From Tribonema minus (lineage: Eukaryota > Sar > Xanthophyceae > Tribonematales > Tribonemataceae): a DNA stretch of 64,000 nucleotides. Every line of letters starts with the position of its first letter. Within the stretch, counting starts at the first letter, position 1. This document shows, piece after piece, positions 12,234 to 64,000 of the stretch. The notes below the pieces were generated by a model that saw only the letters and a program-made list of their open reading frames with translations, was not told the DNA's origin and searched no databases. The stretch is from the NCBI GenBank assembly GCA_017506865.1, contig JAFCMP010000514.1, positions 1,903,979 through 1,967,978 on the forward strand. Direction: 5' to 3'. The position numbers and the translations under genes are program-made.

Positions 12234-12862
12234 TCATGGTGTGTAAACCACAAACGCAACAACATAGCTCATGTTGGCGCAACTTCCTGAGAGAGGAACA
12301 GTGATGGTAAACGAGCCAGCAGCGACTGTGGTGGATGTCACACCCATCAGAGTCAAGTTGCTGCACGAGGTGACTATGGTGGGAATCACCACAGATGCCG
12401 TGGTGACCTGGCTGTTTGCAACGACAATGGTGTCGAGTGCACCTGGGCTGGCTCCAACATTGCGGGTGACCTGCCCAACAGTGGAGTCCAAATCACGAGT
12501 CGCAACAGGGCTAGGGCCTGAGACAGCATCTGTTGCCGTCCTGAAGCCGCGCACCGCAGATGCACCAAAGTCGATGTACGCTGATGCTGAGGCCTTGAGG
12601 GTGACAGCACCACCTGTCGATGTCACCGTCACGGCACCGCTACCAGAGATATCCAGGGTGCCGCCAAGAGCTGACAAGCCCACGTCAGTGGCAAGGCTCA
12701 TGTAGGACCGGGTTGCGGATGTTGCGCTGGTTTGTACGAGGACGGTGCCAGGTGAAGCCGGAGCTAGTCCATCGCCCGCACTTATCGTCACATCACCACC
12801 GTTTGTTGCGGACCCGCTGCTGTTCCCGGCAGCGATGGAAATCCCACCACCGGAAGTAGCAC
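12234..12862 (-). CDS. C-terminal exon of the giant repeat protein
   Basis: This is the last exon, about 209 codons. It first continues the repeat pattern (GATSGGGISIAAGNSSGS, NGGDVTISAGDG), then becomes non-repetitive. It contains AYIDFGASAVRGFRTATDAV, VANSQVTTASVV and AGSFTITV, and ends VVAFVVYTP. Two cysteines (VTSCSNLT and SGSCANMS) are the only ones in the inferred protein and could form a disulfide. NSS, NLT and NMS are possible N-glycosylation sites if the protein is secreted. The beta-rich end resembles, in general style only, the terminal domains of viral and phage fibre proteins. I cannot assign a family. It joins the repeat exon in phase 1: ACA-G plus GT gives Gly, restoring GTG-ATS. 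Confidence 0.85.
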
Positions 12863-15800
12863 CTGCAGCAGACATTGTGCAATGTTGAGTGAGTTTGAGG
12901 GTCAGGTTCATTGTAGAGAAAGCAAACACGATGCTGCCACGTATTGTGGCAGCAAAACTCCATGCACAAGATGTAGACTTCCGAGGTGAGCAGAGGCACG
13001 ACAAGGCAGTCCACGGAATTCACTTAGACAGCAATTGTATATACCCCAACTGACCTGTACCCGCCAGCAAAGAAATGGAGCCCGACGATCCGCTAGATGC
13101 GGCACCCGTAGCCATCACAATGCTGCCACTAGCGCCTGATGATGATGCCCCTGTTCTCACAGCCAGGGCCCCTGTTGTGGCCCCAGGCCCGCTGGCAATG
13201 TTCACTGTGCCGCTGGCCGCACTCGCAGAGCCAGCCCCGCTGGCAACCTCAACTGCTCCTCCTACTCCGCCAGACGAAGCACCACCTGTGACATGCACGG
13301 CACCGCCAGGAACGGTTCCAGCGGCACCGCTGCCACCGGTCAGCGCTAAAGCACCGCCTGCAGCCCCGTTGAATGAGTCACCCGCACTGAGTTGGACAGC
13401 GCCACCAGTGGACCCGCTGCCTGCGGCCATGGTCACACTACCTGCCGTGCCTGCGGTGCTGTCACCAGCGGAGATAGCGACAGTGCCACCCGTGAGTGCA
13501 CCATCAGACGCGCTCAGGGTCAGCAAGCCCCCTGCACCCGTGCCGCCCGCCCCTGAGGCCAGGCTGGCAGATCCACCTGTGCCGCTGGCACTCGCACCAG
13601 CTGCCAATGCGAGATCGCCGCCAGCACTGCTAGTCAGAGCATCGCCAGAGGTAAGGCTGATCGCTCCTCCTGCTCCAGCTTTGCCGCTGCCTGCAGTGAA
13701 CGTCATGGGCCCGCCGTCTACTGTGCCCGCACCCGCAATGATGCGTACAACACCGCCTGTGGATGAACCCACACCGGTTGCGAGTGTCAAGGCCCCGCCA
13801 ACTCCGCTGACAGCGACTCCTGTGTGCAACGATATGGCACCCCCATCGCCGGACTGAGTGCCGCCTGCGCCCGCTGTGAGAGTGAGGTCACCGCCAACAC
13901 CTGATGTGCCGGAGGTAGTACCGGCCGCCAGAGTCATGTCGCCACCATCGGACGATGTGCCCACACCGGCTTGAATGATCATGTGGCCTCCTGATGCACC
14001 TGTTCCGGCATTCAACTGCATGGTTCCACCTGCACCGCTTGAGCCAGTGCCGGCTGCAATGCTGATGGGTCCACCAGTGACGCCCGACCCTGCAAGAGCC
14101 TGCAGTCTGCCGCCAGTGGTAGCACCGCCGCCTGCACTAAGGCTCAACGCGCCGCCAACACCGATGCTGCCAACCCCTGAGGATACGTTAAGCATACCTC
14201 CAATGGCTGCCGCTCCAGAGGCGAGCGTGAGGACACCGCCCGTACCGGAGCTGCTTGAGCCAGCACCTACAGCCACGCTCACCGACCCCCCTGCATTTAG
14301 GCCTGCCCCACTGCTGATAGCCACCGACCCGCTGGTGGCAGCAGAAGATGCTCCCGAAGAAAGGGTCACATTGCCGCTTGCACCAGCACCACTGCCTGAA
14401 GCGAATGTAAGCATGCCTGTCGTTGTTGTGGTGCTGGCACTGTTGATGGAAACTGAGCCGCTGCTGGTTGAGCCGCTACCTGTGATCATCTTGACATCGC
14501 CGCCAGCACCAGTAGACCCTGCACCGCCTCGGATGTCTACAGCACCGCCAGTGGCCGATTGTCCTGCCTGCACCAGCACATCTCCGCCGGCCCCCTGGGT
14601 ACCTTGTCCAGCCAGCAAGCTTAGCTTCCCTCCTGCCCCGCTGGCTGCCGCTCCGCTAGCGATAGTTATGGGGCCACTGTTGCCTGACAGAGATGCGCCA
14701 GAGCCAAACAGCAACGCACCACTGGTTCCACTTGTGCCGCTTGCTGCTGACTGCAGAGTCACTGCTCCACTGTTGCCGGCGGTAGTCGCGCCGCTTGTGA
14801 ATGTCAGTGCACCGCCGTTACTGGCACCGCTGCCAGCAGCAACAGTGACGCTGCCGCCATCACCAACTGCACCTCTGCCTGCTGAAATGCTGACTGCACC
14901 ACCGCTGGCTGACATGCCAGACTCCACCAAAACAGCCCCTCCAGTGCCAACGGTGCTGGCGCCTACTGTAAGGCTCAGCATGCCCGCCCGTCCGCGTGCT
15001 GTGCCGCTGCTGATCGTGACTGCACCGCTGTCACCGTTCGCTGATGCGCCAGAGCTAAACGATACAACCCCGCTTCCGCCTGCTGATGCAGCATCGCCTG
15101 ACTGCAGTAATAGCGAGCCGCTGTTTCCGCTGCTACCGCTACCGCTGCTGATGGACACAAGACCGCCCAGAGTACCGGTGCCTCCATTGACGGTGACTGC
15201 ACCTCCGGTACCCCCGGCTCCAGAACCCGCTGCGACATGGACTGCACCACCTATCATGGAGCTACCTGCCGCCAGTTGAAGCTCTCCACCTGCACCGGTA
15301 TCGCCACCACCTGCTGCCACTCTCACCAGGCCGCCAACACCGCTTGTTGCAGCGCCACTGCCGATCGTGACTGAGCCACTGTTGCCGGATCCGGACGGAC
15401 CAGAGCTGAATGATATGGCACCACTCATGCCAGCTGCACCGCCTGTGCCTGAGGCAATGGCGACGCTGCCACTGCTGCCGGATGCGCCTGAACCGCTGGC
15501 TACGACAATGCTACCTCCCACCAGTCCGGTTCCTGAAGTGAGGGACACTGCACCACCAACGCCATTTGTCCCATCAGTGCTGCTCCCTGCACCTGCCGCC
15601 AAGGACAACATGCCGCCGATCTGTGACCGTCCTGCGCTGACAACAACTCCTCCCCCTGTGCCAGTGCTGCCACTACCGACTGTGAGCTTGAGGCTCCCCC
15701 CAACCCCGCTGCTGGCATCTCCGCTTCCGATGAGCAATGCGCCAGTGTCACCAAAGGTGGACGATCCTGAGCTGAGGACAAGATCACCGCTACCTGATGG

Positions 15801-18800
15801 TGTTTCGGCAGCAGCGCTGGCAGACAGTATGATCACGTCACCACTTGCTGCACCTGGCCCTCCGTGCCCGCTGATGATGCTGACCTCCCCTCCGAAGTCT
15901 GCAGCACTGTTGCCAGCGCTCATGGTCACAGCACCACCAGCACCCGAACTGCTGGTGCCAACTGCTAGTTTGATGCTACCACCTTGGCCATCAGCAGCTG
16001 CTCCGGTTGATATCGAGACCTCGCCGCTGTCGCCGAAGCTACTGCTGACACCAGTGCTCAGAACCAGCGAGCCACTTTCTCCTGAAGTCCCTGGTGCGGA
16101 CATCAGTGACACTGATCCGCTGCTCCCAATTGATGAGGCGCCGCCCTTGATAACGACATCACCACCACTGCTGCTCCCTGAGCCACCAGCAATTGTGACC
16201 ATTCCTCCGACGCCACTTGTGCCCGCCCCGCCTTTGAGACTAATTTCCCCACCTGCCGCAGACTGTCCTGCCTGCATCAGCACTGCTCCCCCTGCCCCTG
16301 AGCTGCCTTGCCCAACCACCAGGCTAATTCCGCCGCCCCTGCCTCCGCTCATGGCTAAACCGCTGCCAATAGAGACACTGCCGCTGTCACCTGATAACGA
16401 CGTGCCGGAGCTCAAGACAAGGGCACCACTTGCGCCGGACGTACCACTGGCTGCGGACACCAGGCTGACAGCTCCGCTGCTGCCAGTGGTAGAGGCGCCG
16501 CTGGCAAGCAACATGTCGCCACCTGCCGAGGTACCGCTGCCAGAGGTGATGATCACGTTACCCCCGGGTCCGGATGCACCTGCACCGGCATCGATGCGGA
16601 CAGCACCACCAGCTGCTGCTTGTCCTGATGCGACCACCACATCACCTCCGATGCCAGTAGTGCTACCTCCAACAGTCAGACTGAGCAGGCCACCGCCCCC
16701 TCCAGTGGCAGCACCACTGCCAATGAGGACAGCACCACTGTTGCCTGCCCTGGACATGCCAGAGCTCAAAGCCACAGCTCCACTAACACCTGAAGGCCCA
16801 GAATCACTGGATATCAAGGTTAGACGGCCGCTGTCGCCTAAGGTGCCGCCACCGCTGGACACCGAAACCTCGCCACCAGCAGGCCCGATCCCGCCAGCAA
16901 TGCTGATAGCCCCGCCAGCACCGGATGTCCCCGATCCTGCTGTCAGGCTGATGGGGCCACCGGAAGCAGACTGCCCGGCTGCCAACATCACAGCACCACC
17001 AGCCCCAGAGTCTCCGCTGCCGGCAGCCAAACTCACCAGGCCGCCCGCTCCTCCTTCAGAACTTCCGCTCCGCACAAGAATATCTCCGCTGTTGCCTGAA
17101 CCAGACGCACCAGAGCTAATTATGACTGTCCCTGTGTGCCCAGAAGCACTGCCATCGGCGGACGCAACAATCACGTCACCGCTGGATGCGCTGGTCGAGG
17201 AGCCGCTGCTAATGTGCACGTTGCCACCGTCTCCGTCACTGCTAAACCCTGCAGTCAGCTGCAGAGGCCCACCAGCACCGCTGGTGCCGCTGCCGACGGT
17301 CAGGCTCAAGGCACCGCCCCTGCCGCCTGTGGCACCTCCTGTAGTGATGTCAACAGCACCGCTGTCACCTGCACCAGAAGCACCAGACCGCAGAGCAAGA
17401 TTGCCGCTTACACCGCTTGAGCCACTGTCTCCGGAGGCCAAGCTGACAGAACCTGTTGTTGTTGCGGATCCGTGAGCACTGCTGATTGACACAGCTCCAC
17501 TTGAGATGCCAGAGCCTGTCACCAGCCTTACTGCACCCCCAGCACCGCTCGTGCCGCTTCCTGCAGCAATGCTGACAGCACCACCGAGTGTTGACTGGCC
17601 TGCTTGTACAACAACACCTCCACCAGCACCTGATGTTCCTGAGCCAACAACAAGGCTCAACTGCCCGCCGGCCCCTTCACTAGCTGTGCCGCTGCCAATT
17701 AAGACAGAGCCACTCGGCCCCAATGATGATGTCCCAGAGCTGAACACAAGGTTGCCACTGGCGCCAGATGCACTGCTGGACCCTGAAACGAGGCTGACTG
17801 CTCCGCTGTTACCGGAGGATGCTGCACCACTTGCAAAGGACAAAGCGCCACCAGTGGAGCTGCCATCGCCAGCTGTCACGCGGACACTGCCACCATCGCC
17901 GGCAGTACCTGTGCCTGCTGCTATGCTGACGGCACCACCACTGGCGGACAGTCCTGCCTCGATCATGACTGCACCTCCTTCACCAACAGTGCCGGACCCT
18001 ACTGTCAGGCTCAGCTCGCCTCCACTGCCCGCAGTGGCAACACCAGTGCTGATGCGTACTGCGCCAGTGCTGCCGAGAGCAGCTGTGCCGGAGCTGACTG
18101 ATACATCTCCGCTGACTCCTGCCAAAGCAGCATTGCCAGACTGTACTGACACAGCCCCGCTGTTGCCAGAGTTGCCGCTGCCGCTGCTGACAGAGAAAGC
18201 ACCGCCAATAGCACCAGTGCCTGCTGCAAGGCTCATGGAACCACCGGACCCGAAGGACCCTGAACCCGCCAAAACTGAAACATCTCCGCCTGATGCAGAT
18301 GCCCCAGAGCTCAGCAACACGCTTCCTCCAGTGCCAGATGTACCTGTGCCGACAGTGAGGCTCAAGAGGCCACCACCGCCATTTGCAGCACTGCCGCTGC
18401 CGATCAGCACAGATCCGCTGGTGCCAGATGATGACATGCCAGTGCTGAAAGAGACAGCACCACTCATGCCCGCTGGCCCGCCTGTGCCAGTGCCGATGCT
18501 GATGTCGCCACTGCTGCCAGATGCGCCAGCACCGCTGGTGACCTCAATCCCTCCACCCACAGATCCTGACCCTGATACCAGTGATACAGCACCACCAGTG
18601 CCGCCTGCGCTGCTTCCTGCACCTGCAGACATGGTCAATGCACCACCAGTCTCTGACTGCCCGGCACTGAGGACTACCTGGCCGCCTGTGCCGGTGGTAC
18701 CACTGCCTACCGTCAGGCTCAGGTCTCCTCCAACTCCATCCGTGGACGACCCGCTACCTACCAGCAGAGAGCCAGTGTTGCCAGTCGCTGATGCGCCTGA

Positions 18801-21800
18801 GCTGAAGACGAGGGAACCGCTACCAGCCGAGGCTCCGCCATCTGCAGACAGCACACGCACTTCCCCACTAGCAGACGACGTGCTTGCTCCGCTGATGATG
18901 CTGACTGCACCTCCAGTAGAGGAAGTGCTAGATCCTGCACTGACTGCTACCGAGCCGCCATTGCCGCTTGTGCCACTGCCGACAGACAGCAGCAGACTGC
19001 CACCGCTGCCAGAAGCAGATGACCCAGTGCCAATGAGCACAGATCCAGTGCTGGCAGCACTGCTGCTGCCAGAGCCAAGTGTCACTGTGCCACTAATGCC
19101 AGCAGCTGTGGGTGCAGAAGCAACAGAAACTGCGCCGCTTGCCCCAGAGAGCCCTGTGCCACTGACCACCTGCACATTGCCGCCACCAGTGCTACCAGCA
19201 CCACCAGCAAGGAGCACTGCGCCGCCTGTGCCGCTTGAACCTGTACCTGCCACAACCGCTATGGCACCACCTGACATGGATTCCCCTGACTGCACCAGCA
19301 CATCTCCACCTGTGCCAGAGCTGCCTGGGCCAACCACCAGGCTCAGCTTCCCGCCAGAACCTCCCATGGCTGCGCCGCTGCCAATTGACACAGCGCCGCT
19401 AGTGCCAGACTGGGATGTGCCAGTGCTGAGCACAAGCTCGCCGCTTGCCCCCACAGCTCCACTTGCACCAGATACGATGCGAACAGCACCGCTGCGGCCA
19501 CTCGCTCCGGTGCCAGTCGCCAGGTGAAGTGCACCACTGCTGGAGCCGCTGCCTGATGCTATGCTCACCGCACCACCAGATCCCGTGATGCCTGTCCCTG
19601 CTACCATACGCAAATCACCGCCCGTGGCTGCTTGTCCTGACATCAGCACCAATGCGCCTCCTGAACCAGCATCGCCACTGCCCACAGACAGCTGGAGCAT
19701 ACCTCCACCTCCACCAGTGGCTGAACCGCTGCCGATCAACACTGCGCCGCTGTTGCCTGACCCTGATGCACCCGTGCTCAGCGTCAACATGCCGCTGACT
19801 CCGCTTGCACCACCGTCGCCTGTCAACAGCGACAGTGCGCCGCCATCATTGACTGCGCCGCTTCCGGTCTTGACAGTCACTGCGCCCCCCTCGGTGCCAG
19901 CACCAGACAGAAGGTTAATGGGACCGCCAACACTGCTTGTGCCAGCACCAGCAGCAATACTGACCGCGCCGCCAGTTGTGGATGCCCCTGACGCCAATAG
20001 CAAATCACCACCAGCACCAGAGTCACCGCTGCCCACAGTCAGACTTACAGGGCCCCCGACTCCGCCTGAGGCGCTGCCACTGCCGACAAGTACAGCACCT
20101 GTGCTGCCAGACGTCGATGCGCCAGAGCTCAGCACCAGCTTGCCAGACATTGTGCCAGCAGCAGATGCAACTCTGACATCGCCGCTTGCCGCCCTGTTGG
20201 ATGAACCACTGCTGAGGTTGACGTTGCCACCATCGCCGCCGCTGCTGAATCCTGCAGTAAGCTGCAGTGCACCACCTGCACCGCTGGAGCCACTGCCGAC
20301 GGTCAGGCTCAAGGCACCGCCTCTGCCGCCTGTGGCACCTCCTGTAGTGATCTCAACAGCACCGCTGTTGCCTGCACCAGAAGCACCGGACCGCAGAGCA
20401 AGATTGCCGCTCACACCGGTTGAGCCACTGTCTCCGGAAGCCAAGCTGACAGAACCTGTTGTTGCTGCTGATCCGTGAGCACTGCTGATTGACACAGCTC
20501 CACTTGAGACGCCAGAGCCTGTCACCAGCCTTACTGCACCTCCAGCACCGCTCGTGCCGCTTCCTGCAGCAATGCTGACAGCACCACCAAGTGTTGACTG
20601 GCCTGCTTGTACAACAACACCTCCACCAGCACCTGATGTTCCTGAGCCAACAACAAGGCTCAACTGCCCGCCGGCCCCTTCACTAGCTGTGCCGCTGCCA
20701 ATCAAGACAGAGCCACTCGGCCCCGATGATGATGTCCCAGAGCTGAACACAAGGCTACCACTGGCGCCAGATGCACTGCTGGACCCTGAAACGAGGCTGA
20801 CTGCTCCGCTGTTACCGGAGGATGCTGCACCACTTGCAAAGGACAAAGCGCCACCAGTGGAGCTGCCATCGCCAGCTGTCACGCGGACACTGCCACCATC
20901 GCCGGCAGTACCTGTGCCTGCTGCTATGCTGACGGCACCACCACTGGCGGACAGTCCTGCCTCGATCATGACTGCACCTCCTTCACCAACAGTGCCGGAC
21001 CCTACTGTCAGGCTCAGCTCGCCTCCACTGCCCGCAGTGGCAACACCAGTGCTGATGCGTACTGCGCCAGTGCTGCCGAGAGCAGCTGTGCCGGAGCTGA
21101 CTGATACATCTCCGCTGACTCCTGCCAAAGCAGCATTGCCAGACTGTACTGACACAGCCCCGCTGTTGCCAGAGTTGCCGCTGCCGCTGCTGACAGAGAA
21201 AGCACCGCCAATAGCACCAGTGCCTGCTGCAAGGCTCATGGAACCACCGGACCCGAAGGACCCTGAACCCGCCAAAACTGAAACATCTCCGCCTGATGCA
21301 GATGCCCCAGAGCTCAGCAACACGCTTCCTCCAGTGCCAGATGTACCTGTGCCGACAGTGAGGCTCAAGAGGCCACCACCGCCATTTGCAGCACTGCCGC
21401 TGCCGATCAGCACGGATCCGCTGGTGCCAGATGATGACATGCCAGTGCTGAAAGAGACAGCACCACTCATGCCCGCTGGCCCGCCTGTGCCAGTGCCGAT
21501 GCTGATGTCGCCACTGCTGCCAGATGCGCCAGCACCGCTGGTGACCTCAATCCCTCCACCCACAGATCCTGACCCTGATACCAGTGATACAGCACCACCA
21601 GTGCCGCCTGCGCTGCTTCCTGCACCTGCAGACATGGTCAATGCACCACCAGTCTCTGACTGCCCGGCACTGAGGACTACCTGGCCGCCTGTGCCGGTGG
21701 TACCACTGCCTACCGTCAGGCTCAGGTCTCCTCCAACTCCATCCGTGGACGACCCGCTACCTACCAGCAGAGAGCCAGTGTTGCCAGTCGCTGATGCGCC

Positions 21801-24800
21801 TGAGCTGAAGACGAGGGAACCGCTACCAGCCGAGGCTCCGCCATCTGCAGACAGCACACGCACTTCCCCACTAGCAGACGACGTGCTTGCTCCGCTGATG
21901 ATGCTGACTGCACCTCCAGTAGAGGAAGTGCTAGATCCTGCACTGACTGCTACCGAGCCGCCATTGCCGCTTGTGCCACTGCCGACAGACAGCAGCAGAC
22001 TGCCACCGCTGCCGGAAGCGGATGACCCAGTGCCAATGAGCACAGATCCAGTGCTGGCAGCACTGCTGCTGCCAGAGCCAAGTGTCACTGTGCCACTCAT
22101 GCCAGCAGCTGTGGGTGCAGAAGCAACAGTAATTACGCCGCTTGCCCCAGAGAGCCCTGTGCCACTGACCACCTGCACATTGCCGCCACCAGTGCTACCA
22201 GCACCACCAGCAAGGAGCACTGCGCCGCCTGTGCCGCTTGATCCTGTACCTGCCACAACCGCTATGGCACCACCTGACATGGATTCCCCTGACTGCACCA
22301 GCACATCTCCACCTGTGCCAGAGCTGCCTGGGCCAACCACCAGGCTCAGCTTCCCGCCAGAACCTCCCATGGCTGCGCCGCTGCCGATTGACACAGCGCC
22401 GCTAGTGCCAGACTGGGATGTGCCAGTGCTGAGCACAAGCTCGCCGCTTGCCCCCACAGCTCCACTTGCACCAGATACGATGCGAACAGCACCGCTGCGG
22501 CCACTCGCTCCGGTGCCAGTCGCCAGGTGAAGTGCACCACTGCTGGAGCCGCTGCCTGATGCTATGCTCACCGCACCACCAGATCCCGTGATGCCTGTCC
22601 CTGCTACCATACGCACATCACCGCCCGTGGCTGCTTGTCCTGACATCAGCACCAATGCGCCTCCTGAACCAGCATCGCCACTGCCCACAGACAGCTGGAG
22701 CATACCTCCACCTCCACCAGTGGCTGAACCGCTGCCGATCAACACTGCGCCGCTGTTGCCTGACCCTGATGCACCCGAGCTCAGCGTCAACATGCCGCTG
22801 ACTCCGCTTGCACCACCGTCGCCTGTCAACAGCGACAGTGCGCCGCCATCATTGACTGCGCCGCTGCCGGTCTTGACAGACACTGCGCCCCCCTCGGTGC
22901 CAGTACCAGACAGAAGGTTAATGGCACCACCAACACTGCTTGTGCCGGCACCGGCAGCAATACTGACCGCGCCGCCAGTTGTGGATGCCCCTGATGCCAT
23001 TAGCAAATCACCACCAGCACCAGAGTCACCGCTGCCCACAGTCAGACTTACAGGGCCCCCGACTCCGCCTGAGGCGCTGCCACTGCCGACAAGTACAGCA
23101 CCTGTGCTGCCAGACATCGATGCGCCAGAGCTCAGCACCAGCTTGCCAGACATTGTGCCAGCAGCAGATGCAACTCTGACATCGCCGCTTGCCGCCCTGT
23201 TGGATGAACCACTGCTGAGGTTGACGTTGCCACCATCGCCGCCGCTGCTGAATCCTGCAGTCAGCTGCAGTGCACCACCTGCACCGCTGGAGCCACTGCC
23301 GACGGTCAGGCTCAAGGCACCGCCCCTGCCGCCTGTGGCACCTCCTGTAGTGATGTCGACAGCACCGCTGTCACCTGCACCAGAAGCACCGGACCGCAGA
23401 GCAAGATTGCCGCTCACACCGCTTGAGCCACTGTCTCCGGAGGCCAAGCTGACAGAACCTGTTGTTGTTGCTGATCCGTGAGCACTGCTGATTGACACAG
23501 CTCCACTTGAGATGCCAGAGCCTGTCACCAGCCTTACTGCACCTCCAGCACCGCTCGTGCCGCTTCCTGCAGCAATGCTGACAGCACCACCAAGTGTTGA
23601 CTGGCCTGCTTGTACAACAACACCTCCACCAGCACCTGATGTTCCTGAGCCAACAACAAGGCTCAACTGCCCGCCGGCCCCTTCACTAGCTGTGCCGCTG
23701 CCAATCAAGACAGAGCCACTAGGCCCCGATGATGATGTCCCAGAGCTGAACACAAGGTTGCCACTGGCGCCAGCTGCACTGCTGGACCCTGAAACGAGGC
23801 TGACTGCTCCGCTGTTACCGGAGGATGCTGCACCACTTGCAAAGGACAAAGCGCCACCAGTGGAGCTGCCATCGCCAGCTGTCACGCGGACACTGCCACC
23901 ATCGCCGGCAGTACCTGTGCCTGCTGCTATGCTGACGGCACCACCACTGGCCGACAGTCCTGCCTCGATCATGACTGCACCTCCTTCACCAACAGTGCCG
24001 GACCCTACTGTCAGGCTCAGCTCGCCTCCACTGCCCGCAGTGGCAACACCAGTGCCGATACGTACTGCACCAGTGCTGCCGAGAGCAGCTGTGCCGGAGC
24101 TGACTAATACATCTCCGCTGACTCCTGCCAAAGCAGCATTGCCAGACTGTACTGATACAGCCCCGCTGTTGCCAGAGTTGCCGCTGCCGCTGCTGACAGA
24201 GAAAGCACCGCCAACAGCACCAGTGCCTGCCGCAAGGTTCATGGAACCACCAGACCCGAATGACCCAGAACCCGCCAAAACTGAAACATCTCCGCCTGAT
24301 ACGGATGCCCCAGAGCTCAGCAACACCCTTCCTCCAGTTCCAGATGTACCTGTGCCAACAGTGAGGCTCAAGAGGCCGCCACTGCCATTTGCAGAACTGC
24401 CACTGCCGATCAGCACGGACCCGCTGGTGCCAGAGCCAGAGGAACCGGTGCTGAAAGATACAGCACCACTCGTCCATGCTGCTGCGCCGTTGCCAGATGC
24501 AATACTGACGTCGCCACTGTGACCAGCAGTACCGGCACCGCTTGACATCTCAATCGTGCCGCCGACTGCTCCAGATCCAGACAGCAGTGTAACAGCACCG
24601 CCACCCCCGCTGGCGCTGCCATCTCCTGCAGTCAAACTGAAGGCACCGCCAGCCCCTGAGCCAGACATGTTGCTGTGCGCACTGCCACTGGCCAATGAGA
24701 CTACGCCGCCCGCAGTTCCTGTGCCAGCTGCAAGACTGATGGAGCCGCCGACCCCAGACAGCCCTGATCCTGCTGTCACACTGACGGGACCACCGCTGAC

Positions 24801-51800: not shown

Positions 51801-54800
51801 CTGCACCGCTGGAGCCACTGCCGACGGTCAGGCTCAAGGCACCGCCCCTGCCGCCTGTGGCACCTCCTGTAGTGATGTCGACAGCACCGCTGTCACCTGC
51901 ACCAGAAGCACCGGACCGCAGAGCAAGATTGCCGCTCACACCGCTTGATCCACCGTCTCCGGAGGCCAAGCTGACAGAACCTGTTGTTGTTGCTGATCCA
52001 TGAGCACTGCTGATTGACACAGCTCCACTTGAGATGCCAGAGCCTGTCACCAGCCTTACTGCACCTCCAGCACCGCTCGTGCCGCTTCCTGCAGCAATTG
52101 TGACAGCACCACCGAGTGTGGACTGGCCTGCTTGTACAACAACACCTCCACCAGCACCTGATGTTCCTGAGCCAACAACAAGGCTCAACTGCCCGCCGGC
52201 CCCTTCACTAGCTGTGCCGCTGCCAATCAAGACAGAGCCACTCGGCCCCGATGATGATGTCCCAGAGCTGAACACAAGGTTGCCACTGGCGCCAGATGCA
52301 CTGCTGGACCCTGAAACGAGGCTGACTGCTCCGCTGTTACCGGAGGATGCTGCACCACTTGCAAAGGACAAAGCGCCACCAGTGGAGCTGCCATCGCCAG
52401 CTGTCACGCGGACACTGCCACCATCGCCGGCAGTACCTGTGCCTGCTGCTATGCTGACGGCACCACCACTGGCGGACAGTCCTGCCTCGATCATGACTGC
52501 ACCTCCTTCACCAACAGTGCCGGACCCTACTGTCAGGCTCAGCTCGCCTCCACTGCCCGCAGTGGCAACACCAGTGCTGATGCGTACTGCGCCAGTGCTG
52601 CCGAGAGCAGCTGTGCCGGAGCTGACTGATACATCTCCGCTGACTCCTGCCAAAGCAGCATTGCCAGACTGTACTGACACAGCCCCGCTGTTGCCAGAGT
52701 TGCCGCTGCCGCTGCTGACAGAGAAAGCACCGCCAATAGCACCAGTGCCTGCTGCAAGGCTCATGGAACCACCGGACCCGAATGACCCAGAACCCGCCAA
52801 AACTGAAACATCTCCGCCTGATACAGATGCCCCAGAGCTCAGCAACACGCTTCCTCCAGTGCCAGATGTACCTGTGCCAACAGTGAGGCTCAAGAGGCCA
52901 CCACCGCCATTTGCAGCACTGCCGCTGCCGATCAGCACGGATCCGCTGGTGCCAGATGATGACATGCCAGTGCTGAAAGAGACAGCACCACTCATGCCCG
53001 CTGGCCCGCCTGTGCCAGTGCCGATGCTGATGTCGCCACTGCTGCCAGATGCGCCAGCACCGCTGGTGACCTCAATCCCTCCACCCACAGATCCTGACCC
53101 TGATACCAGTGATACAGCACCACCAGTGCCGCCTGCGCTGCTTCCTGCACCTGCAGACATGGTCAATGCACCACCAGTCTCTGACTGCCCGGCACTGAGG
53201 ACTACCTGGCCGCCTGTGCCGGTGGTACCACTGCCTACCGTCAGGCTCAGGTCTCCTCCAACTCCATCGGTGGACGACCCGCTACCTACCAGCAGAGAGC
53301 CAGTGTTGCCGGTCGCTGATGCGCCTGAGCTGAAGACGAGGGAACCGCTACCAGCCGAGGCTCCGCCATCTGCAGACAGCACACGCACTTCCCCACTAGC
53401 AGACGACGTGCTTGCTCCGCTGATGATGCTGACTGCACCTCCAGTGGAGGAAGTGCTAGACCCTGCACTGACTGCTACCGAGCCGCCATTGCCGCTTGTG
53501 CCACTGCCGACAGACAGCAGCAGACTGCCACCGCTGCCGGAAGCGGATGACCCAGTGCCAATGAGCACAGATCCAGTGCTGGCAGCACTGCTGCTGCCAG
53601 AGCCAAGTGTCACTGTGCCACTCATGCCAGCAGCTGTGGGTGCAGAAGCAACAGAAACTGCGCCGCTTGCCCCAGAGAGCCCTGTGCCACTGACCACCTG
53701 CACATTGCCGCCACCAGTGCTACCAGCACCACCAGCAAGGAGCACTGCGCCGCCTGTGCCGCTTGAACCTGTACCTGCCACAACCGCTATGGCACCACCT
53801 GACATGGATTCCCCTGACTGCACCAGCACATCTCCACCTGTGCCAGAGCTGCCTGGGCCAACCACCAGGCTCAGCTTCCCGCCAGAACCTCCCATGGCTG
53901 CGCCGCTGCCGATTGACACAGCGCCGCTAGTGCCAGACTGGGATGTGCCAGTGCTGAGCACAAGCTCGCCGCTTGCCCCCGCAGCTCCACTTGCACCAGA
54001 TACGATGCTAACAGCACCGCTGCGGCCACTCGCTCCGGTGCCAGTCGCCAGGTGAAGTGCACCACTGCTGGAGCCGCTGCCTGATGCTATGCTCACCGCA
54101 CCACCAGATCCCGTGATGCCTGTCCCTGCTACCATACGCACATCACCGCCCGTGGCTGCTTGTCCTGACATCAGCACCAATGCGCCTCCTGAACCAGCAT
54201 CGCCACTGCCCACAGACAGCTGGAGCATACCTCCACCTCCACCAGTGGCTGAACCGCTGCCGATCAACACTGCGCCGCTGTTGCCTGACCCTGATGCACC
54301 CGAGCTCAGCGTCAACATGCCGCTGACTCCGCTTGCACCACCGTCGCCTGTCAACAGCGACAGTGCGCCGCCATCATTGACTGCGCCGCTTCCGGTCTTG
54401 ACAGACACTGCGCCCCCCTCGGTGCCAGTACCAGACAGAAGGTTAATGGCACCACCAATACTGCTTGTGCCGGCACCGGCAGCAATACTGACCGCGCCGC
54501 CAGTTGTGGATGCCCCTGACGCCATCAGCAAATCACCACCAGCACCAGAGTCACCGCTGCCCACAGTCAGACTTACAGGGCCCCCGACTCCGCCTGAGGC
54601 GCTGCCACTGCCGACAAGTACACCACCTGTGCTGCCAGACCTCGATGCGCCAGAGCTCAGCACCAGCTTGCCAGACATTGTGCCAGCAGCAGATGCAACA
54701 CTGACATCGCCGCTTGCGCCACTGCTGGACGATCCACTGCTGAGGTCGACGTTGCCACCGTCGCCGCCGCTGCTGAATCCTGCAGTCAGCTGCAGTGCCC

Positions 54801-57800
54801 CACCTGCACCGCTGGAGCCACTGCCGACGGTCAGGCTCAAGGCACCGCCTCTGCCGCCTGTGGCACCTCCTGTAGTGATGTCGACAGCACCGCTGTCACC
54901 TGCACCAGAAGCACCGGACCGCAGAGCAAGATTGCCGCTCACACCGCTTGAGCCACTGTCTCCGGAGGCCAAGCTGACAGAACCTGTTGTTGTTGCTGAT
55001 CCATGAGCACTGCTGATTGACACAGCTCCACTTGAGATGCCAGAGCCTGTCACCAGCCTTACTGCACCTCCAGCACCGCTCGTGCCGCTTCCTGCAGCAA
55101 TGGTGACAGCACCACCGAGTGTGGACTGGCCTGCTTGTGCAACTACACCTCCACCAGCACCTGATGTTCCTGAGCCAACAACAAGGCTCAACTGCCCGCC
55201 GGCCCCTTCACTAGCTGTGCCGCTGCCAATCAAGACAGAGCCACTCGGCCCCGATGATGATGTCCCAGAGCTGAACACAAGGTTGCCACTGGCGCCAGAT
55301 GCACTGCTGGACCCTGAAACGAGGCTGACTGCTCCGCTGTCACCGGAGGATGCTGCACCACTTGCAAAGGACAAAGCGCCACCAGTGGAGCTGCCATCGC
55401 CAGCTGTCACGCGGACACTGCCACCATCGCCGGCAGTACCTGTGCCTGCTGCTATGCTGACGGCACCACCGCTGGCGGACAGTCCTGCCTCGATCATGAC
55501 TGCACCTCCTTCACCAACAGTGCCGGACCCTACTGTCAGGCTCAGCTCGCCTCCACTGCCCGCAGTGGCAACACCAGTGCTGATGCGTACTGCGCCAGTG
55601 CTGCCGAGAGCAGCTGTGCCGGAGCTGACTGATACATCTCCGCTGACTCCTGCCAAAGCAGCATTGCCAGACTGTACTGACACAGCCCCGCTGTTGCCAG
55701 AGTTGCCGCTGCCGCTGCTGACAGAGAAAGCACCGCCAATAGCACCAGTGCCTGCTGCAAGGCTCATGGAACCACCGGACCCGAAAGACCCTGAACCCGC
55801 CAAAACTGAAACATCTCCGCCTGATGCAGATGCCCCAGAGCTCAGCAACACGCTTCCTCCAGTGCCAGATGTACCTGTGCCGACAGTGAGGCTCAAGAGG
55901 CCACCACCGCCATTTGCAGCACTGCCGCTGCCGATCAGCACGGATCCGCTGGTGCCAGATGATGACATGCCAGTGCTGAAAGAGACAGCACCACTCATGC
56001 CCGCTGGCCCGCCTGTGCCAGTGCCGATGCTGATGTCGCCACTGCTGCCAGATGCGCCAGCACCGCTGGTGACCTCAATCCCTCCACCCACAGATCCTGA
56101 CCCTGATACCAGTGATACAGCACCACCAGTGCCGCCTGCGCTGCTTCCTGCACCTGCAGACATGGTCAATGCACCACCAGTCTCTGACTGCCCGGCACTG
56201 AGGACTACCTGGCCGCCTGTGCCGGTGGTACCACTGCCTACCGTCAGGCTCAGGTCTCCTCCAACTCCATCGGTGGACGACCCGCTACCTACCAGCAGAG
56301 AGCCAGTGTTGCCGGTCGCTGATGCGCCTGAGCTGAAGACGAGCGAGCCGCTACCAGCCGAGGCTCCGCCATCTGCAGACAGCACACGCACTTCCCCACT
56401 AGCAGACGACGTGCTTGCTCCGCTGATGATGCTGACTGCACCTCCAGTGGAGGAAGTGCTAGACCCTGCACTGACTGCTACCGAGCCGCCATTGCCGCTT
56501 GTGCCACTGCCGACAGACAGCAGCAGACTGCCACCGCTGCCGGAAGCGGATGACCCAGTGCCAATGAGCACAGATCCAGTGCTGGCAGCACTGCTGCTGC
56601 CAGAGCCAAGTGTCACTGTGCCACTCATGCCAGCAGCTGTGGGTGCAGAAGCAACAGAAACTGCGCCGCTTGCCCCAGAGAGCCCTGTGCCACTGACCAC
56701 CTGCACATTGCCGCCACCAGTGCTACCAGCACCACCAGCAAGGAGCACTGCGCCGCCTGTGCCGCTTGATCCTGTACCTGCCACAACCGCTATGGCACCA
56801 CCTGACATGGATTCCCCTGACTGCACCAGCACATCTCCACCTGTGCCAGAGCTGCCTGGGCCAACCACCAGGCTCAGCTTCCCGCCAGAACCTCCCATGG
56901 CTGCGCCGCTGCCGATTGACACAGCGCCGCTAGTGCCAGACTGGGATGTGCCAGTGCTGAGCACAAGCTCGCCGCTTGCCCCCACAGCTCCACTTGCACC
57001 AGATACGATGCTAACAGCACCGCTGCGGCCACTCGCTCCGGTGCCAGTCGCCAGGTGAAGTGCACCACTGCTGGAGCCGCTGCCTGATGCTATGCTCACC
57101 GCACCACCAGATCCCGTGATGCCTGTCCCTGCTACCATACGCACATCACCGCCCGTGGCTGCTTGTCCTGACATCAGCACCAATGCGCCTCCTGAACCAG
57201 CATCGCCACTGCCCACAGACAGCTGGAGCATACCTCCACCTCCACCAGTGGCTGAACCGCTGCCGATCAACACTGCGCCGCTGTTGCCTGACCCTGATGC
57301 ACCCGAGCTCAGCGTCAACATGCCGCTGACTCCGCTTGCACCACCGTCGCCTGTCAACAGCGACAGTGCGCCGCCATCATTGACTGCGCCGCTGCCGGTC
57401 TTGACAGACACTGCGCCCCCCTCGGTGCCAGTACCAGACAGAAGGTTAATGGCACCACCAACACTGCTTGTGCCGGCACCGGCAGCAATACTGACCGCGC
57501 CGCCAGTTGTGGATGCCCCTGACGCCATCAGCAAATCACCACCAGCACCAGAGTCACCGCTGCCCACAGTCAGACTTACAGGGCCCCCGACTCCGCCTGA
57601 GGCGCTGCCACTGCCGACAAGTACAGCACCTGTGCTGCCAGACCTCGATGCGCCAGAGCTCAGCACCAGCTTGCCAGACATTGTGCCAGCAGCAGATGCA
57701 ACACTGACATCGCCGCTTGCGCCACTGCTGGACGATCCACTGCTGAGGTTGACGTTGCCACCGTCGCCGCCGCTGCTGAATCCTGCAGTCAGCTGCAGAG

Positions 57801-60800
57801 CCCCACCTGCACCGCTGGAGCCACTGCCGACGGTCAGGCTCAAGGCACCGCCTCTGCCGCCTGTGGCACCTCCTGTAGTGATGTCGACAGCACCGCTGTC
57901 ACCTGCACCAGAAGCACCGGACCGCAGAGCAAGATTGCCGCTCACACCGCTTGAGCCACTGTCTCCGGAGGCCAAGCTGACAGAACCTGTTGTTGTTGCT
58001 GATCCATGAGCACTGCTGATTGACACAGCTCCACTTGAGATGCCAGAGCCTGTCACCAGCCTTACTGCACCTCCAGCACCGCTCGTGCCGCTTCCTGCAG
58101 CAATGCTGACAGCACCACCGAGTGTGGACTGGCCTGCTTGTACAACAACACCTCCACCAGCACCTGATGTTCCTGAGCCAACAACAAGGCTCAACTGCCC
58201 GCCGGCCCCTTCACTAGCTGTGCCGCTGCCAATCAAGACAGAGCCACTCGGCCCCGATGATGATGTCCCAGAGCTGAACACAAGGTTGCCACTGGCGCCA
58301 GATGCACTGCTGGACCCTGAAACAAGGCTGACTGCTCCGCTGTTACCGGAGGATGCTGCACCACTTGCAAAGGACAAAGCGCCACCAGTGGAGCTGCCAT
58401 CGCCAGCTGTCACGCGGACACTGCCACCATCGCCGGCAGTACCTGTGCCTGCTGCTATGCTGACGGCACCACCACTGGCGGACAGTCCTGCCTCGATCAT
58501 GACTGCACCTCCTTCACCAACAGTGCCGGACCCTACTGTCAGGCTCAGCTCACCTCCACTGCCCGCAGTGGCAACACCAGTGCTGATGCGTACTGCGCCA
58601 GTGCTGCCGAGAGCAGCTGTGCCGGAGCTGACTGATACAACTCCGCTGACTCCTGCCAGAGCAGCACTGCCAGACTGTACTGACACAGCCCCGCTGTTGC
58701 CAGAACTGCCGCTGCCGCTGCTGACAGAGAAAGCACCGCCAATAGCACCAGTGCCTGCTGCAAGGCGCATGTAACCACCAGACCCGAATGATCCAGAACC
58801 CGCCAAAACTGAAACATCTCCGCCTGATACGGATGCCCCAGAGCTCAGCAACACGCTTCCTCCAGTGCCAGATGTACCTGTGCCGACAGTGAGGCTCAAG
58901 AGGCCACCACCGCCATTTGCAGCACTGCCGCTGCCGATCAGCACGGATCCGCTGGTGCCAGATGATGACATGCCAGTGCTGAAAGAGACAGCACCACTCA
59001 TGCCCGCTGGCCCGCCTGTGCCAGTGCCGATGCTGATGTCGCCACTGCCAGATGCGCCAGCACCGCTGGTGACCTCAATCCCTCCACCCACAGATCCTGA
59101 CCCTGATACCAGTGATACAGCACCACCAGTGCCGCCTGCGCTGCTTCCTGCACCTGCAGACATGGTCAATGCACCACCAGTCTCTGACTGCCCGGCACTG
59201 AGGACTACCTGGCCGCCTGTGCCGGTGGTACCACTGCCTACCGTCAGGCTCAGGTCTCCTCCAACTCCATCGGTGGACGACCCGCTACCTACCAGCAGAG
59301 AGCCAGTGTGCCGGTCGCTGATGCGCCTGAGCTGAAGACGAGCGAGCCGCTACCAGCCGAGGCTCCGCCATCTGCAGACAGCACACGCACTTCCCCACTA
59401 GCAGACGACGTGCTTGCTCCGCTGATGATGCTGACTGCACCTCCAGTGGAGGAAGTGCTAGACCTGCACTGACTGCTACCGAGCCGCCATTGCCGCTTGT
59501 GCCACTGCCGACAGACAGCAGCAGACTGCCACCACTGCCGGAAGCGGATGACCCAGTGCCAAGGAGCACAGATCCAGTGCTGGCAGCATGCTGCTGCCAG
59601 AGCCAAGTGTCACTGTGCCACTCATTGCCAGCAGCTGTGGGTGCAGAAGCAACAGAAACTGCGCCGCTTGCCCCAGAGAGCCTGTGCCACTGACCACTGC
59701 AAATTGCCGCCATCAGTGCTACCAGCACCACCAGCAAGCAGCACTGCGCGCCTGCTGTGCCGCTGATCCTGTACCTGCCACTAGCGCTATGGCACCACCT
59801 GACATGGATTCCCCTGACTGCACCAGCACGTCTCCACCTGTGCCAGAGCTGCCTGGCCAACCACCAGGCTCAGCTTCCGCCTGAAACCCAATAGCTGCGC
59901 CGCTGCCGATTGACACAGCGCAATAGTGCCAGACTGGATGTGCCAGTGCTGAGCACAAGCTCGCCGCTGGCCCCCGCAGCTACATTGCACCAGATACGAT
60001 GCTAACAGCACCGCTGCGGCCACTCGCTCCGGTGCCAGTCGCCAGGTGAAGTGCACCACTGCTGAGCCGCTGCCTGATGCTATGCTCACCGTACCACCAT
60101 GATCGTGATGCCTGTCCCGCTACCATACGCACATCACCGCCCGTGGGCTGTGTCCTGACATCAGCACCAATGCGCCTCTGGACAGCATCGCCACTGCCCC
60201 AGACAGCTGGAGCATACCTCACCTCCACCAGTGGCTGCCACCGCTGCCGATCAACACTGCGCCGCTGTTGCCTGACCCTGATGCGCCCGAGCTCAGCGTC
60301 AACATGCCGCTGACTCCGCTTGCACCACCGTCGCCTGTCAACAGCGACAGTGCGCCGCCATCATTGACTGCGCCACTTCGGTCTTGACAGTCACTGCGCC
60401 CCCCTCGGCCAGCACCAGACTGGAGGTTAATGGCACCACCAAACAATGCTTGTGCCAGCACCGGCAGCAACACTGATAGTGCCGCCAGTTGTGGACGCCC
60501 CTGATGCCAATAGCAATTCACACCAGCACCAGAGTCACCGCTGCCCACAGTCAGACTTACAGGGCCCCCGACTCCGCCTGAGGCGCTGCCACTGCCGACA
60601 AGTACACCACCTGTGCTGCCAGACCTCGATGCGCCAGAGCTCAGCACAGCTTGCCAGACATTGTGCCAGCAGCAGATGCAACACTGACATCGCCCTTGCG
60701 CACTGTTGGATGAACCATGCTGAGGTTGATGTTGCCCACCGTCGCGCTGCATGCTGAATCCTGCAGTCAGCTGCAGTGCGCCACCTGCACACGCTTGTGC

Positions 60801-63800
60801 CGCTGCCGACGGTCAGGCTCAAGGCACCGCCCCTGCCGCCTGTGGCACTCCTGTAGTGATGTCAACAGCACCGCTGTCACCTGCACCAGAAGTACCGCGG
60901 ACCGCAGAGCAAGATTGCCGCTCACAACCGCTTGAGCCACTGTCTCCGGAGGCCAAGCTGACAGAACCTGTTGTGTGTTGCTGAACGTAAGCACTGCTGA
61001 TTGATAGAGCTCCACTTGAGATGCCAGAGCCTGTCACCAGCCTTACTGCACCTCCAGCACCGCTCGTGCCGCTTCATGCAGCAGCAATGCTGACAGCACC
61101 AACGAGTGTGGACTGGCCCGCTTTGTACAAACACACTTCCACCAGCACCTGATGTTCTGAAGCCAACAACAAGGCTCAACTCGCCGCCCGCCGGCCCCTC
61201 AGTGGCAGTGCCGCTGCCAATCAAGACAGAGCCACTTGACCCGATGATGATGTCCCAGAGCTAAACACAAGGTCGCCACTCGAGCCAGATGCACTGCTGA
61301 ATCCTGAAACGAGGCTGACTACTCCGCTGTTACCAGAGGATGCGCACCACTTGCAAAGGACAAAGAGCCACCAGTGGAGCTGCCATCGCCAGCTGTCACG
61401 CGGACACTGCCACCATCGCCGGCAGTTACCTGTGCCTGCTCCTATGCTTGACGGCACCACCACTGGCGGACACTCCTGCCTCGATCATGACTGCACTCCT
61501 TCACCAACAGTGCCGGACCTACTGTCAGCCTCAGCTCACCTCCACTGCCCGCAGTGGCAACACCAGTGCTGATGCGTACTGCGCCAGTTCTGCCGAGAGC
61601 AGCTGGCGGAGCTGACTGATCACATCTCCGCTGACTCCTGCCAAAGCAGCATTGCCAGACTGTACTGACACAGCCCCGCTGTTGCCAGAGTTGCCGCTGC
61701 AGCTGCTGACAGAGAAAGCACCGCCAATAGCACAGTGCCTGCCGCAAGGCTCATGGAACCACCAGACCCGAATGACCCTGAACCCGCAAAACTGAAACAT
61801 CTCCGCTGATGCAGATGCCCCAGAGCTCAGCAACACGCTTCCTCCAGTGCCAGATGTACCTGTGCCGACAGTGAGCTCAAGAGGCCACCACCGCCTTGCA
61901 GCACTGCCGCTGCTGATCAGAACGGATCCGCTGGTGCCAGATGATGACATGCCAGTGCTGAAAGAGACAGCACCACTCATGCCCGCTGGCCCGCCTGTGC
62001 AGTGCCGATGCTGATGTCGCCACTGCTGCAGATGCGCCAGCACGCTGGTGACCTCAATCTCCAACCCACAGATCTCTGACCTGATACCAGTGATACAGCA
62101 CCACCAGTGCCGCCGCGCTGCTTCTGCCCCTGCAGACATGGTCAATGCACCACCAGTCTCTGACTGCCGGCACTGAGGACTACCTGGCCACCTGTGCCGG
62201 TGGTACCACTGCCTACCGTCAGGCTCAGGTCTCTCCAACTTCCATCGGTGGACGACCGACCTACCTACCAGCAGAGAGCCAGTGTTGCCGGTCGCTGATG
62301 CGCCTGAGCTGAAGACGAGGGAACCGCTACCGGCGGAGGCTCCGCCATCTGCAGACAGCACACGCACTTCCCCACTAGCAGACGACGTGCTTGCTCCGCT
62401 GATGATGCTGACTGCACCTCCAGTGGAGGCAGTGCTAGACCCTGCACTGACTGCTACCGAGCCGCCATTGACGCTTGTGCCACTGCCGACAGACAGCAGC
62501 AGACTGCCACCACTGACGGAAGCGGATGACCCAGTGCAATGAGCACAGATCCAGTGCTGGCAGCACTGCTGCTGCCAAGAGCCAAGTGTCACGTGCCACT
62601 CATGCCAGCAGCTGTGGGTGCAGAAGCAACAGAAACTGCGCCGCTTGCCCAGAGAGCCCTGTGCCACTGACCACCTGCACATTGCCGCCACCAGTGCTAC
62701 CAGCACCACCAGCAAGGAGCACTGCGCCGCCTGTGCCGCTTGATCCTGTACCTGCCACAACCGCTATGGCACCACCTGACATGGATTCCCCTGACTGCAC
62801 CAGCACGTCTCCACCTGTGCCAGAGCTGCCTGGGCCAACCACCAGGCTCAGCTTCCCGCCAGAACCTCCCATGGCTGCGCCGCTGCCGATTGACACAGCG
62901 CCGCTAGTGTCCAGACTGGGATGTGCCAGTGCTGAGCACAAGCTCGCGCTTGCCCCGGCAGCTCCACTTGCACCAGATACGATGCTAACAGCACCGCTGC
63001 GCGCCACCGCTCCGGTGCCAGTCGCCAGGTGAAGTGGCACCACTGCTGGAGCCGCTGCTGATGCTATGCTCACCGCACCACAGATCCCGTAATGCCTGTC
63101 CCTGCTACCATACGCACATCACCGCCCGTGGCTGCGTGTCCTGACATCAGCACCAATGCGCCTCCTGGACCAGCATCGCCACTGCCCACAGACAGCTGGA
63201 GCATACCCCACCTCACCAGTGGCTGAACCGCTGCCGATCAACACTGCGCCGCTGTTGCATGACCCTGATGCACCCGAGCTCAGCGTCAACATGCCGCTGA
63301 CTCCGCTTGCACCACCGTCGCCTGTCAACAGCGACAGTGCGCCGCCATCGTTGACTGCGCCGCTTCCGGTCTTGACAGTCACTGCGCCCCCCTCGGTGCC
63401 AGCACCAGACTGGAGGTAATGGCACCAACCAACACTGCTTGTGCCGGCACCGGCAGCAAACACTGATAGTGCCGCCAGTTGGGGATGCCCCTGATGCCAA
63501 CAGCATTCACCACCAGCACCAGAGTCACCGCTGCCCACAGTCAGACTTACAGGGCCCCCGACTCCGCCTGAGGCGCTGCCACTGCCGACAAGTACACCAC
63601 TGTGCTGCCAGACTCGATGCGCCAGAGCTCAGCACCAGCTTGCCAGAACATTGTGCCAGCAGCAGATGCAACGCTGATGTCGCCGCTTGCCGCACTGTTG
63701 GATGAACCACTGCTGAGGTTGACGTTGCCCACCGTCGCCGCCGCTGCTGGAATCCTGCAGTCAGCTGCAGTGCCCCACCTGCACCGCTGGAGCCACTGCC

Positions 63801-64000
63801 GCGGTCAGGCTCAAGCACCGCCCTCCGCCGTTGGCACCTCCTGTAGTGATGTCAAAAGCACCGCTGTCACCTGCACCAGAAAGTACCGGACCGCAGAGCA
63901 AGATTTGCCGCTCACACGCTTGAGCCCACTGTCTCGGAGGCAAGCTGACAGAAACCTGTTGTTGTTGCTGATCCGTGAGCACTGCTGATTGACACAGCTC
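12234..64000 (-). CDS. Giant Gly/Ser-rich tandem-repeat protein, 5'-partial, over 17,000 codons in window
   Basis: One minus-strand gene runs from beyond the right edge to a TGA at 12,234. Its parts are a long repeat exon (from beyond 64,000 down to 13,055), a 192-nt intron and a last exon (12862-12234). The frame is open for 29.7 kb (13,055-42,706) and again for 16.6 kb (42,709-59,308). A one-base insertion separates these, and the remaining 4.7 kb has many indels. The protein is a hierarchy of motifs of the form [SG]-G-x-h-x-h-x-x-G every 12-17 residues, which suggests a long beta-solenoid. The 1001-residue consensus unit has no Cys, Trp or Tyr and few charged residues. No enzyme domain is visible and the N-terminus is not in the window. 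A secreted or cell-surface structural or adhesive role is inference from composition, sequons and architecture only. The opposite strand is also open for long stretches but is stopped at least once in nearly every unit. Confidence 0.9.
12863..13054 (-). other. Phase-1 intron (192 nt) near the 3' end of the giant gene
   Basis: On the minus strand the donor is GGGTACAG|GTCAGT (exon ends at 13055) and the acceptor is TGTCTGCTGCAG|GTGCTAC (exon starts at 12862). Without splicing, the repeat frame stops at 13,020 after a non-repeat tail (LGYIQLLSK). With splicing, it passes into further repeats of the same style. The matching phase and motif continuity make this the likely structure. Confidence 0.85.
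13055..17250 (-). repeat. Diverged C-terminal repeats of the giant protein
   Basis: About 1,400 codons use the same short motif but no longer match the 3,003-bp unit closely. It opens in the unit register (GGNVHISSGSSTSASSGDV instead of GGNVNLSSGSS) and then departs. Toward the C-terminus motifs shorten (for example GGMLNVSSGVGSIG, GGDLTLTAGAGG). The transition is gradual, between about 17,220 and 17,290. Diverged terminal copies are expected where a tandem array is homogenised internally. Confidence 0.85.
13055..42706 (-). CDS. Giant repeat protein, uninterrupted coding block 1
   Basis: About 9,884 codons without a stop on the minus strand, from the frame break at 42,704-42,708 down to the splice donor at 13,054. 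A formal Met-initiated frame begins at 42,746, but its first residues (MATSTSAVVHPTVA) are the out-of-frame reading of the normal unit sequence GGNVNLSSGSSNSAASG. That Met is therefore not a real start. The block carries about eight full units plus the diverged end, including all three long units. Confidence 0.9.
24426..24923 (-). repeat. Extra 166-residue subrepeat, copy 1
   Basis: A 498-base in-frame block present only in long units, inserted between the subrepeats ending AVSFSTGMSSSGT and starting SGSVLIGSGS. It begins SGSVLIGTGTSMTGGGG, contains ASGSAHSNMSGSGAGG, and has the array's only tryptophan (AAAWTSG). Confidence 0.9.
30930..31427 (-). repeat. Extra 166-residue subrepeat, copy 2
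   Basis: Same block as at 24426-24923, exactly 6,504 bases away, with a few point differences (IVSGNGAAAW here, where copy 1 has IASGNGAAAW). Confidence 0.9.
37434..37931 (-). repeat. Extra 166-residue subrepeat, copy 3
   Basis: Third copy, again 6,504 bases on. It reads SSGRSVSGGPVNVTAG where copies 1 and 2 read SSGQSVSGGPVSVTAG. Confidence 0.9.
42709..59308 (-). CDS. Giant repeat protein, uninterrupted coding block 2
   Basis: About 5,530 codons in the unit frame, from the first frameshift of the damaged zone (59,309) to the base insertion at 42,704-42,708. After that point the frame runs into out-of-frame Cys/Trp-rich sequence and stops at 42,538. Units here are all of the short 3,003-bp type. 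One unit has an in-frame 3-base loss near 59,047, giving GASGSGD in place of GASGSSGD. Confidence 0.9.
59309..64000 (-). pseudogene. Frame-disrupted part of the repeat array (probable sequence-quality zone)
   Basis: From the missing T at 59,309-59,310 to the right edge, the same units continue but with a one-base insertion or deletion roughly every 50-100 bases (for example GACCTGCAC for GACCCTGCAC near 59,461, and CTCATTGCCAG for CTCATGCCAG near 59,623), plus extra substitutions. Unit lengths fall to about 2,981 and 2,988. Clean stretches such as 62,280-62,500 remain. Neighbouring units to the left are almost error-free, so the onset is abrupt. I favour unpolished consensus in a multi-mapping repeat over true decay, but label it as disrupted because no continuous frame can be read. 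Confidence 0.7.

Follow-up and report, generated by a model that had tools for sequence, protein, structure and literature searches.

What does a strand of DNA that stays open for tens of kilobases encode, and where does it begin? The question is raised by the window analysed here, a 64,000-nucleotide stretch of the Tribonema minus genome (contig JAFCMP010000514.1, positions 1,903,979 to 1,967,978; C511 in our numbering), which lies at the end of its contig in an assembly of 158 Mb in 554 contigs. A first-pass annotation had proposed a single giant gene for a protein of at least 17,000 residues. This proposal is supported and the gene extended by our analysis: sequence comparisons favour one gene, whose predicted protein would have a mass of about 2.3 to 2.5 MDa and roughly 26,500 to 28,500 residues in this assembly, and of which the window holds only the larger, 3' part. 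We give an even chance to the fuller reading, in which the product would be secreted and, probably as a trimer, form a micrometre-scale fibre that its own Peptidase_S74/ICA domain cuts in two.

Two stop-to-stop frames on the minus strand, 13020..42773 (9917 aa) and 42538..59349 (5603 aa), overlap around one break; as had been stated, about 46 kb are open but for this single-base interruption. The extra base responsible is probably an assembly error. The C-terminal frame spans 12234..13019 from stop to stop on the same strand, and the junction between exons 2 and 3, ACAG/gtcagt ... ctgctgcag/GTGCT, keeps the short repeat, or rung, described below in frame. The intron-corrected count within the window is 17,191.7 codons, in agreement with the earlier figure of about 17,190. 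The features are listed here, with repeat units designated B on C511, A on contig C529 and Q on contig C491.

12234..12862, minus strand: exon 3, with the last rungs and the C-terminal domain; stop codon at 12234-12236; splice-consistent
12863..13054, minus strand: intron 2, 192 bp, placed by splice consensus
13055..17149, minus strand: diverged rungs between the array and intron 2, the 3' end of giant exon 2
17150..58104, minus strand: clean tandem array of units B3 to B15 (13 units) plus a 421-bp partial unit, B16p
23577-27077, minus strand: 3501-bp unit B13, alternating with 3003-bp units
30081-33581, minus strand: 3501-bp unit B11, alternating with 3003-bp units
36585..40085, minus strand: 3501-bp unit B9, alternating with 3003-bp units
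About 42708, minus strand: single extra base in unit B8, absent from all 12 comparison units, which splits the two long frames
58105..61086, minus strand: unit B2; clean and B-type in its 3' half, error-rich in its 5' half, where it tracks Q2 of C491
61087..64000, minus strand: unit B1, an error-rich copy of A4 of C529, forming the overlap that ties C529 to C511

The repeat was said to continue to the window edge, and the array does reach base 64000, but the segment from about 59.35 to 64 kb is full of indels and not continuously open (its longest listed minus-strand frame is 410 aa). Gene decay was rejected as the cause, the 5' part being a low-quality copy of units which are clean on C529 and C491. 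The lack of a 5' end in the window reflects an assembly break, since C511 stops at window base 64000.

The array behaves as coding sequence under maintenance. Unit B4 contains no stops in its coding frame against 2 to 42 in the other five frames. The expectation from an order-1 Markov model of this unit is 19.9 stops in 1001 codons, every one of 2000 draws containing at least one. Among 20 clean units we counted 268 distinct one-base variants, of which 144 are synonymous and 124 nonsynonymous where 31% would be expected to be synonymous. The corresponding ratio of nonsynonymous to synonymous rates (dN/dS) is about 0.40, with a P value of 5.5e-14 that serves as a guide only because gene conversion makes the units non-independent, and no stops occur against 3.3 expected. 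Outside the array, exon 2 has a further 5,137 codons on C529, without a single stop where 140 would be expected. The dN/dS ratio and the lack of stops therefore indicate that the coding sequence is maintained.

The nested repeats described earlier were recovered at every level. The smallest is the rung, GG-x-[VL]-x-[LVI]-x-S-G followed by a linker of mostly 4 to 8 residues, with only two strongly hydrophobic positions; it averages 14.75 aa in the 9917-aa frame (671 rungs), and 380 and 710 rungs were counted in the 5603-aa and C529 frames, respectively. Above this level stand 8-rung blocks of 117 to 121 aa, listed in one unit, and units of 3003 bp (1001 aa), with which three longer ones, of 3501 bp, alternate to give a 6504-bp dimer. 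Because the array units are 97.0 to 99.8% identical to each other and include this dimer arrangement, array length would appear to be set by unequal crossing-over and gene conversion. Unit B4 is composed of 28% Gly, 23% Ser and 13% Ala, with neither Cys nor sequon. No Pfam model exists for the 1001-residue unit, which returned no Pfam or PHROGs match up to E 1 and no solved-structure match up to E 0.1. The C-terminal region is similarly isolated: none of 2564 candidate relatives of the exon reached E 0.001, while its frame gave only weak Pfam and PHROGs matches below the cut-offs and a best E of 0.42 against solved structures.

The 5' side of the array was located by a DNA search within this genome, which led to C529. 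The last 31.8 kb of this contig form a single open frame of 10,598 codons in an orientation matching C511, the final stretch being error-rich. To the gene, C529 contributes its start codon, an exon resembling a signal peptide, a PSI domain, approximately 3,500 residues of rungs and an internal Peptidase_S74/ICA domain; the start codon and signal peptide that the first-pass annotation had expected from extension of the contig are thus both found there, the latter as a signal-like exon. Exon 1 reads MSGAFWWVVVAWSLCFVSTASQP... and is joined to the Cys-rich region by a 75-bp gt..ag intron. Approximately 9 kb upstream of the gene start, C529 also carries a 342-aa open stretch (C529:637978-639003; L015 4055-5080) with a partial duplicate of the repeat, of 261 to 263 bp and with 93 to 97% identity to clean window units.

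The two contigs are tied together by shared private variants. Among 17 clean units, 24 substitutions are private to A4, the last full unit of C529, and B1, the first unit of C511, carries 23 of these with a gap at the remaining one; B2, A5p and A0p carry two, one and two of them, respectively. Across all 50 informative sites B1 tracks A4 at 49, again with one gap. The partial unit A5p, which follows A4, agrees with B2 at 28 of 32 non-consensus sites. Contig C491 begins with an A4-like unit, Q1 (99.93%), and continues with three clean units, Q2 to Q4, of which Q4 breaks off after 2,785 bases where the contig ends; B1 and the error-rich 5' half of B2 follow A4 and Q2.

With both the start and the stop end located and overlapping, the three-exon model amounts to 26,455 aa by direct overlap (A4 and B2 each counted once), or to 28,457 aa when Q1 to Q4 are substituted and Q4 is taken as a whole unit; its frame crosses the one unit with the extra base. 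The predicted protein consists of the signal-peptide-like exon, a Cys-rich PSI region, the diverged rungs of approximately 15 residues and the ICA domain, followed by more diverged rungs, an array of 18 to 20 units (1001 to 1207 residues), a diverged tail and the C-terminal domain. The giant exon spans about 79 to 85 kb when its pieces are summed.

What kind of protein might this be? The PSI (plexin repeat) domain, PF01437, scores 28.2 bits against a curated cut-off of 23.1 (23.2 bits in the raw frame) at residues 107-136 of the typed piece, corresponding to 92-121 of the spliced model, and 17 of the 18 Cys in the first 9,228 residues fall within residues 15 to 136. The internal Peptidase_S74/ICA domain, PF13884, scores 36.3 bits against a cut-off of 22, and 44.1 bits in the search of the genome itself. 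Its motif SDQRIK aligns with the Ser and Lys positions of MyRF, five residues apart, the Ser being residue 3752 of the spliced model; an alignment of seven ICA domains likewise shows both residues here. The earlier statement that enzymatic domains are lacking thus holds for the window, while the 5' part has an ICA domain with the Ser-Lys positions of self-cleaving members. The MyRF ICA chain 7dc3 was the one solved chain found for this region at E 0.01 (E 7.7e-9, 112 query residues). According to the excerpted text of PMC8326128, cleavage of MyRF requires S587, K592 and a trimer. Both proteins carry the ICA domain inside the chain; MyRF, however, is a membrane transcription factor of ordinary size, whereas the domain here is flanked on either side by a very long repeat region, in a signal-bearing protein. 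Sequons, used earlier as a hint of a surface location, number three in exon 3 and 45 in the first 9,228 residues, but B4, the one unit counted, has none and sequon N-glycosylation would therefore not mark the array.

From these features we infer how the fibre might be made. The chain would enter the secretory pathway and its rungs would stack along the fibre axis, while the ICA domain would set three chains in register and then cut before its Ser, in the manner of MyRF and phage tail spikes. Two products would result, a short head fibre that carries the PSI domain and a very long fibre formed by the C-terminal part. The fibre shaft of the adenovirus type, the triple beta-spiral, is a 15-residue repeat in a trimer; the rungs would suit it in length, and each has only two strongly hydrophobic positions. 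A hand estimate puts the rungs at approximately 1,750 to 1,900. With a rise of 0.48 nm for each, the fibre would be about 0.85 to 0.9 micrometre long; were the rungs triple-beta-spiral repeats rising by 1.3 nm, it would reach about 2.3 to 2.5 micrometres. Its likely role would be structural, at the cell surface, in the matrix of a scale or wall, or in a flagellar hair. We put forward only tentatively, and consider on balance doubtful, the bolder version in which a protein of 26,000 to more than 30,000 residues is secreted as a trimeric fibre a micrometre long, is set in register and cut into a PSI head and a giant shaft by an internal ICA domain of the virus-tail-spike type, and varies in length between strains through recombination of its 1001-residue units.

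Several observations weigh against the fibre reading, as regards both its mechanism and, further below, the joining of the contigs. Firstly, the single-gene model is a prediction from DNA sequence, and the signal-peptide-like character of exon 1 was judged by eye. Secondly, Ala occupies the Ser position in 7dc3, the crystallised MyRF chain itself. Thirdly, rungs rather than a helical end directly follow the ICA domain, which is far from the C-terminus, a departure from the arrangement of phage tail spikes. Lastly, two AlphaFold2 models reached predicted local distance difference test (pLDDT) values of only 44 and 57, and the second was assigned no secondary structure.

These points bear on a possible but unlikely alternative, namely that the gene is the same and its product a secreted fibre, but that the ICA domain is inactive, the chain staying whole as a monomer, a Gly/Ser beta-solenoid located at the cell surface or in the matrix. 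The pattern GGxVxLxSG, with its alternating hydrophobic residues, fits such a monomer and makes a solenoid fold plausible, and the first AlphaFold2 model has one short strand per rung. Loss also appears to occur within the family. In the 920-aa relative P0001, which aligns at 34% identity over 73% of the ICA-containing query, two ICA domains lie among rungs, in the same context as the single one here; in the second, Ala replaces the Ser, a sign that this copy may serve as a chaperone only. In the present ICA domain, by contrast, both the Ser and Lys positions are retained, and neither model is a confident one. Low pLDDT does not support a monomeric solenoid, and poor alignments or a requirement for a trimer could be its causes. 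The surface or matrix solenoid proposed in the first-pass annotation is thus borne out in part: the signal-like exon 1 and the PSI domain would fit such a location, while the fold is plausible from the rungs and modelled with low confidence.

The remaining difficulties for the single-gene, self-cut fibre concern the junction. The overlap between C529 and C511 passes through error-rich sequence, and B2 turns from Q2-type to B-type exactly where the sequence becomes clean; the junction inside C511 is for this reason perhaps an assembler jump, and some units may have been skipped when the end of C511 was joined on. All 13.8 kb of contig C456 (loci L033 and L035) can be aligned to the part of C511 where 3501-bp and 3003-bp units alternate, and this contig may be an allele of B11 to B14 or an unplaced further piece of the array. 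As it could equally be such an allele, it was rejected as a proven extra segment and left out of the protein length. Taken with the 1.4 to 2.9% by which clean units of C529 and C511 differ, the extra contigs C456 and C491, and the fact that the assembly leaves C529 and C511 unjoined, these features would suit two neighbouring or allelic genes, the two contigs ending in arrays of different paralogues. We regard this as improbable. B1 and the 5' half of B2, both on C511, carry private alleles of A4 on C529 and Q2 on C491, and the contig orientations suit one gene. Furthermore, the C-terminal exon has at least one match in the genome, and a 999-aa piece of the diverged N half has at least one full-length match, at 100%, and otherwise matches only in part, at 35 to 51%.

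An untranslated or decaying satellite-like array, open merely by descent, would account for the near-identical tandem units and the break in B8, but is very improbable given the dN/dS and absence of stops reported above, the fully open 5,137 non-array codons, the splice-consistent ends and the signal-like first exon.

A similarly slight probability attaches to a viral origin, with amplification in the host genome of a fibre gene from an endogenous virus or polinton-like virus. Peptidase_S74 occurs at three other places in this genome (C190:226479, C71:103539 and C79:1003809; L029, L030 and L032), all of another type, which in at least two is phage-like; two of them, judged by eye, have VITATGGLSSAGGLTV-type repeats and helical-looking tails, one being Gln-rich, and resemble virus or polinton-like-virus fibre proteins. 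The excerpted text of PMC12220804 describes ICA domains as common among polinton-like-virus fibre proteins, and stalks or fibres with S74/ICA domains in phage and polinton-like-virus tail-spike or fibre proteins. In these the ICA domain is often C-terminal, whereas more than 22,000 residues come after it here. The gene model has introns, a signal-like exon and a PSI domain, and its ICA domain is nearest to that of MyRF, unlike the other S74 copies of the genome. On the C511 side, two coding pieces of the window (9420-10334, minus strand; 1688-2155, plus strand) match Peptidase_C13, which we take to be GPI8-like, and, just under the cut-off, the syntaxin 6/10/61 N-terminal domain. Searches of phage, viral and prokaryote collections, which were of limited reach, gave no tblastn match for the ICA region or the unit among phages, one unconfirmed pattern match for P0001 and none for P0011 among viral contigs, and 510 pattern matches with none confirmed for the unit in the genome_contigs collection.

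The rungs are not confined to this alga. A search with the ICA region scored 7994 candidates and returned P0001 (541 bits) and two weak matches, while 13 of the 7984 candidates scored with the unit as query reached E 0.001, aligning with 9 to 52% of its length at 29 to 41% identity. These include proteins of Lagenidium giganteum (P0005) and Cafeteria roenbergensis (P0011), both stramenopiles, as well as P0004 and P0006. P0006 also carries S74 and P0011 EGF domains, EGF-type domains being present in three of six relatives run against Pfam. Given these 13 relatives, the rung family is common to several organisms. The 1001-residue array was seen only here; the relatives, at 634 to 1,705 residues as deposited, are too short for such an array. 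Titin and the PKZILLA synthases are of a similar size class. Titin is an intracellular Ig/Fn3 protein and the PKZILLA proteins are enzymes, and this rung repeat is not known to us from either. None of the open papers listed for broad search terms described this protein, which is weak evidence of absence; PMC11573180, in excerpt, offered general context only.

The genome has 92 matches to the light-harvesting family LHC, so the organism is photosynthetic. Two antenna proteins were set against solved chains: the first is nearest to fucoxanthin chlorophyll a/c proteins and the other to the LHCI chains of 9vfj, followed by ACPI and CAC antennae (the latter presumably cryptophyte). These two proteins make an alga of the red lineage probable. 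TTAGGG-type patterns matched 2885 and 3778 times genome-wide, overlaps included, and the matches listed fall in short arrays dispersed over C1 and in one terminal array where C2 begins.

The case illustrates how assembly breaks in near-perfect repeats can hide genes of this kind. If the secreted, self-cut fibre is real, the protein would belong to the size class of the longest proteins while being encoded mostly by one exon, and we know of no earlier case of an ICA domain inside a giant fibre. It would also offer a testable way in which a single-celled alga might make a structure on the micrometre scale out of one polypeptide.

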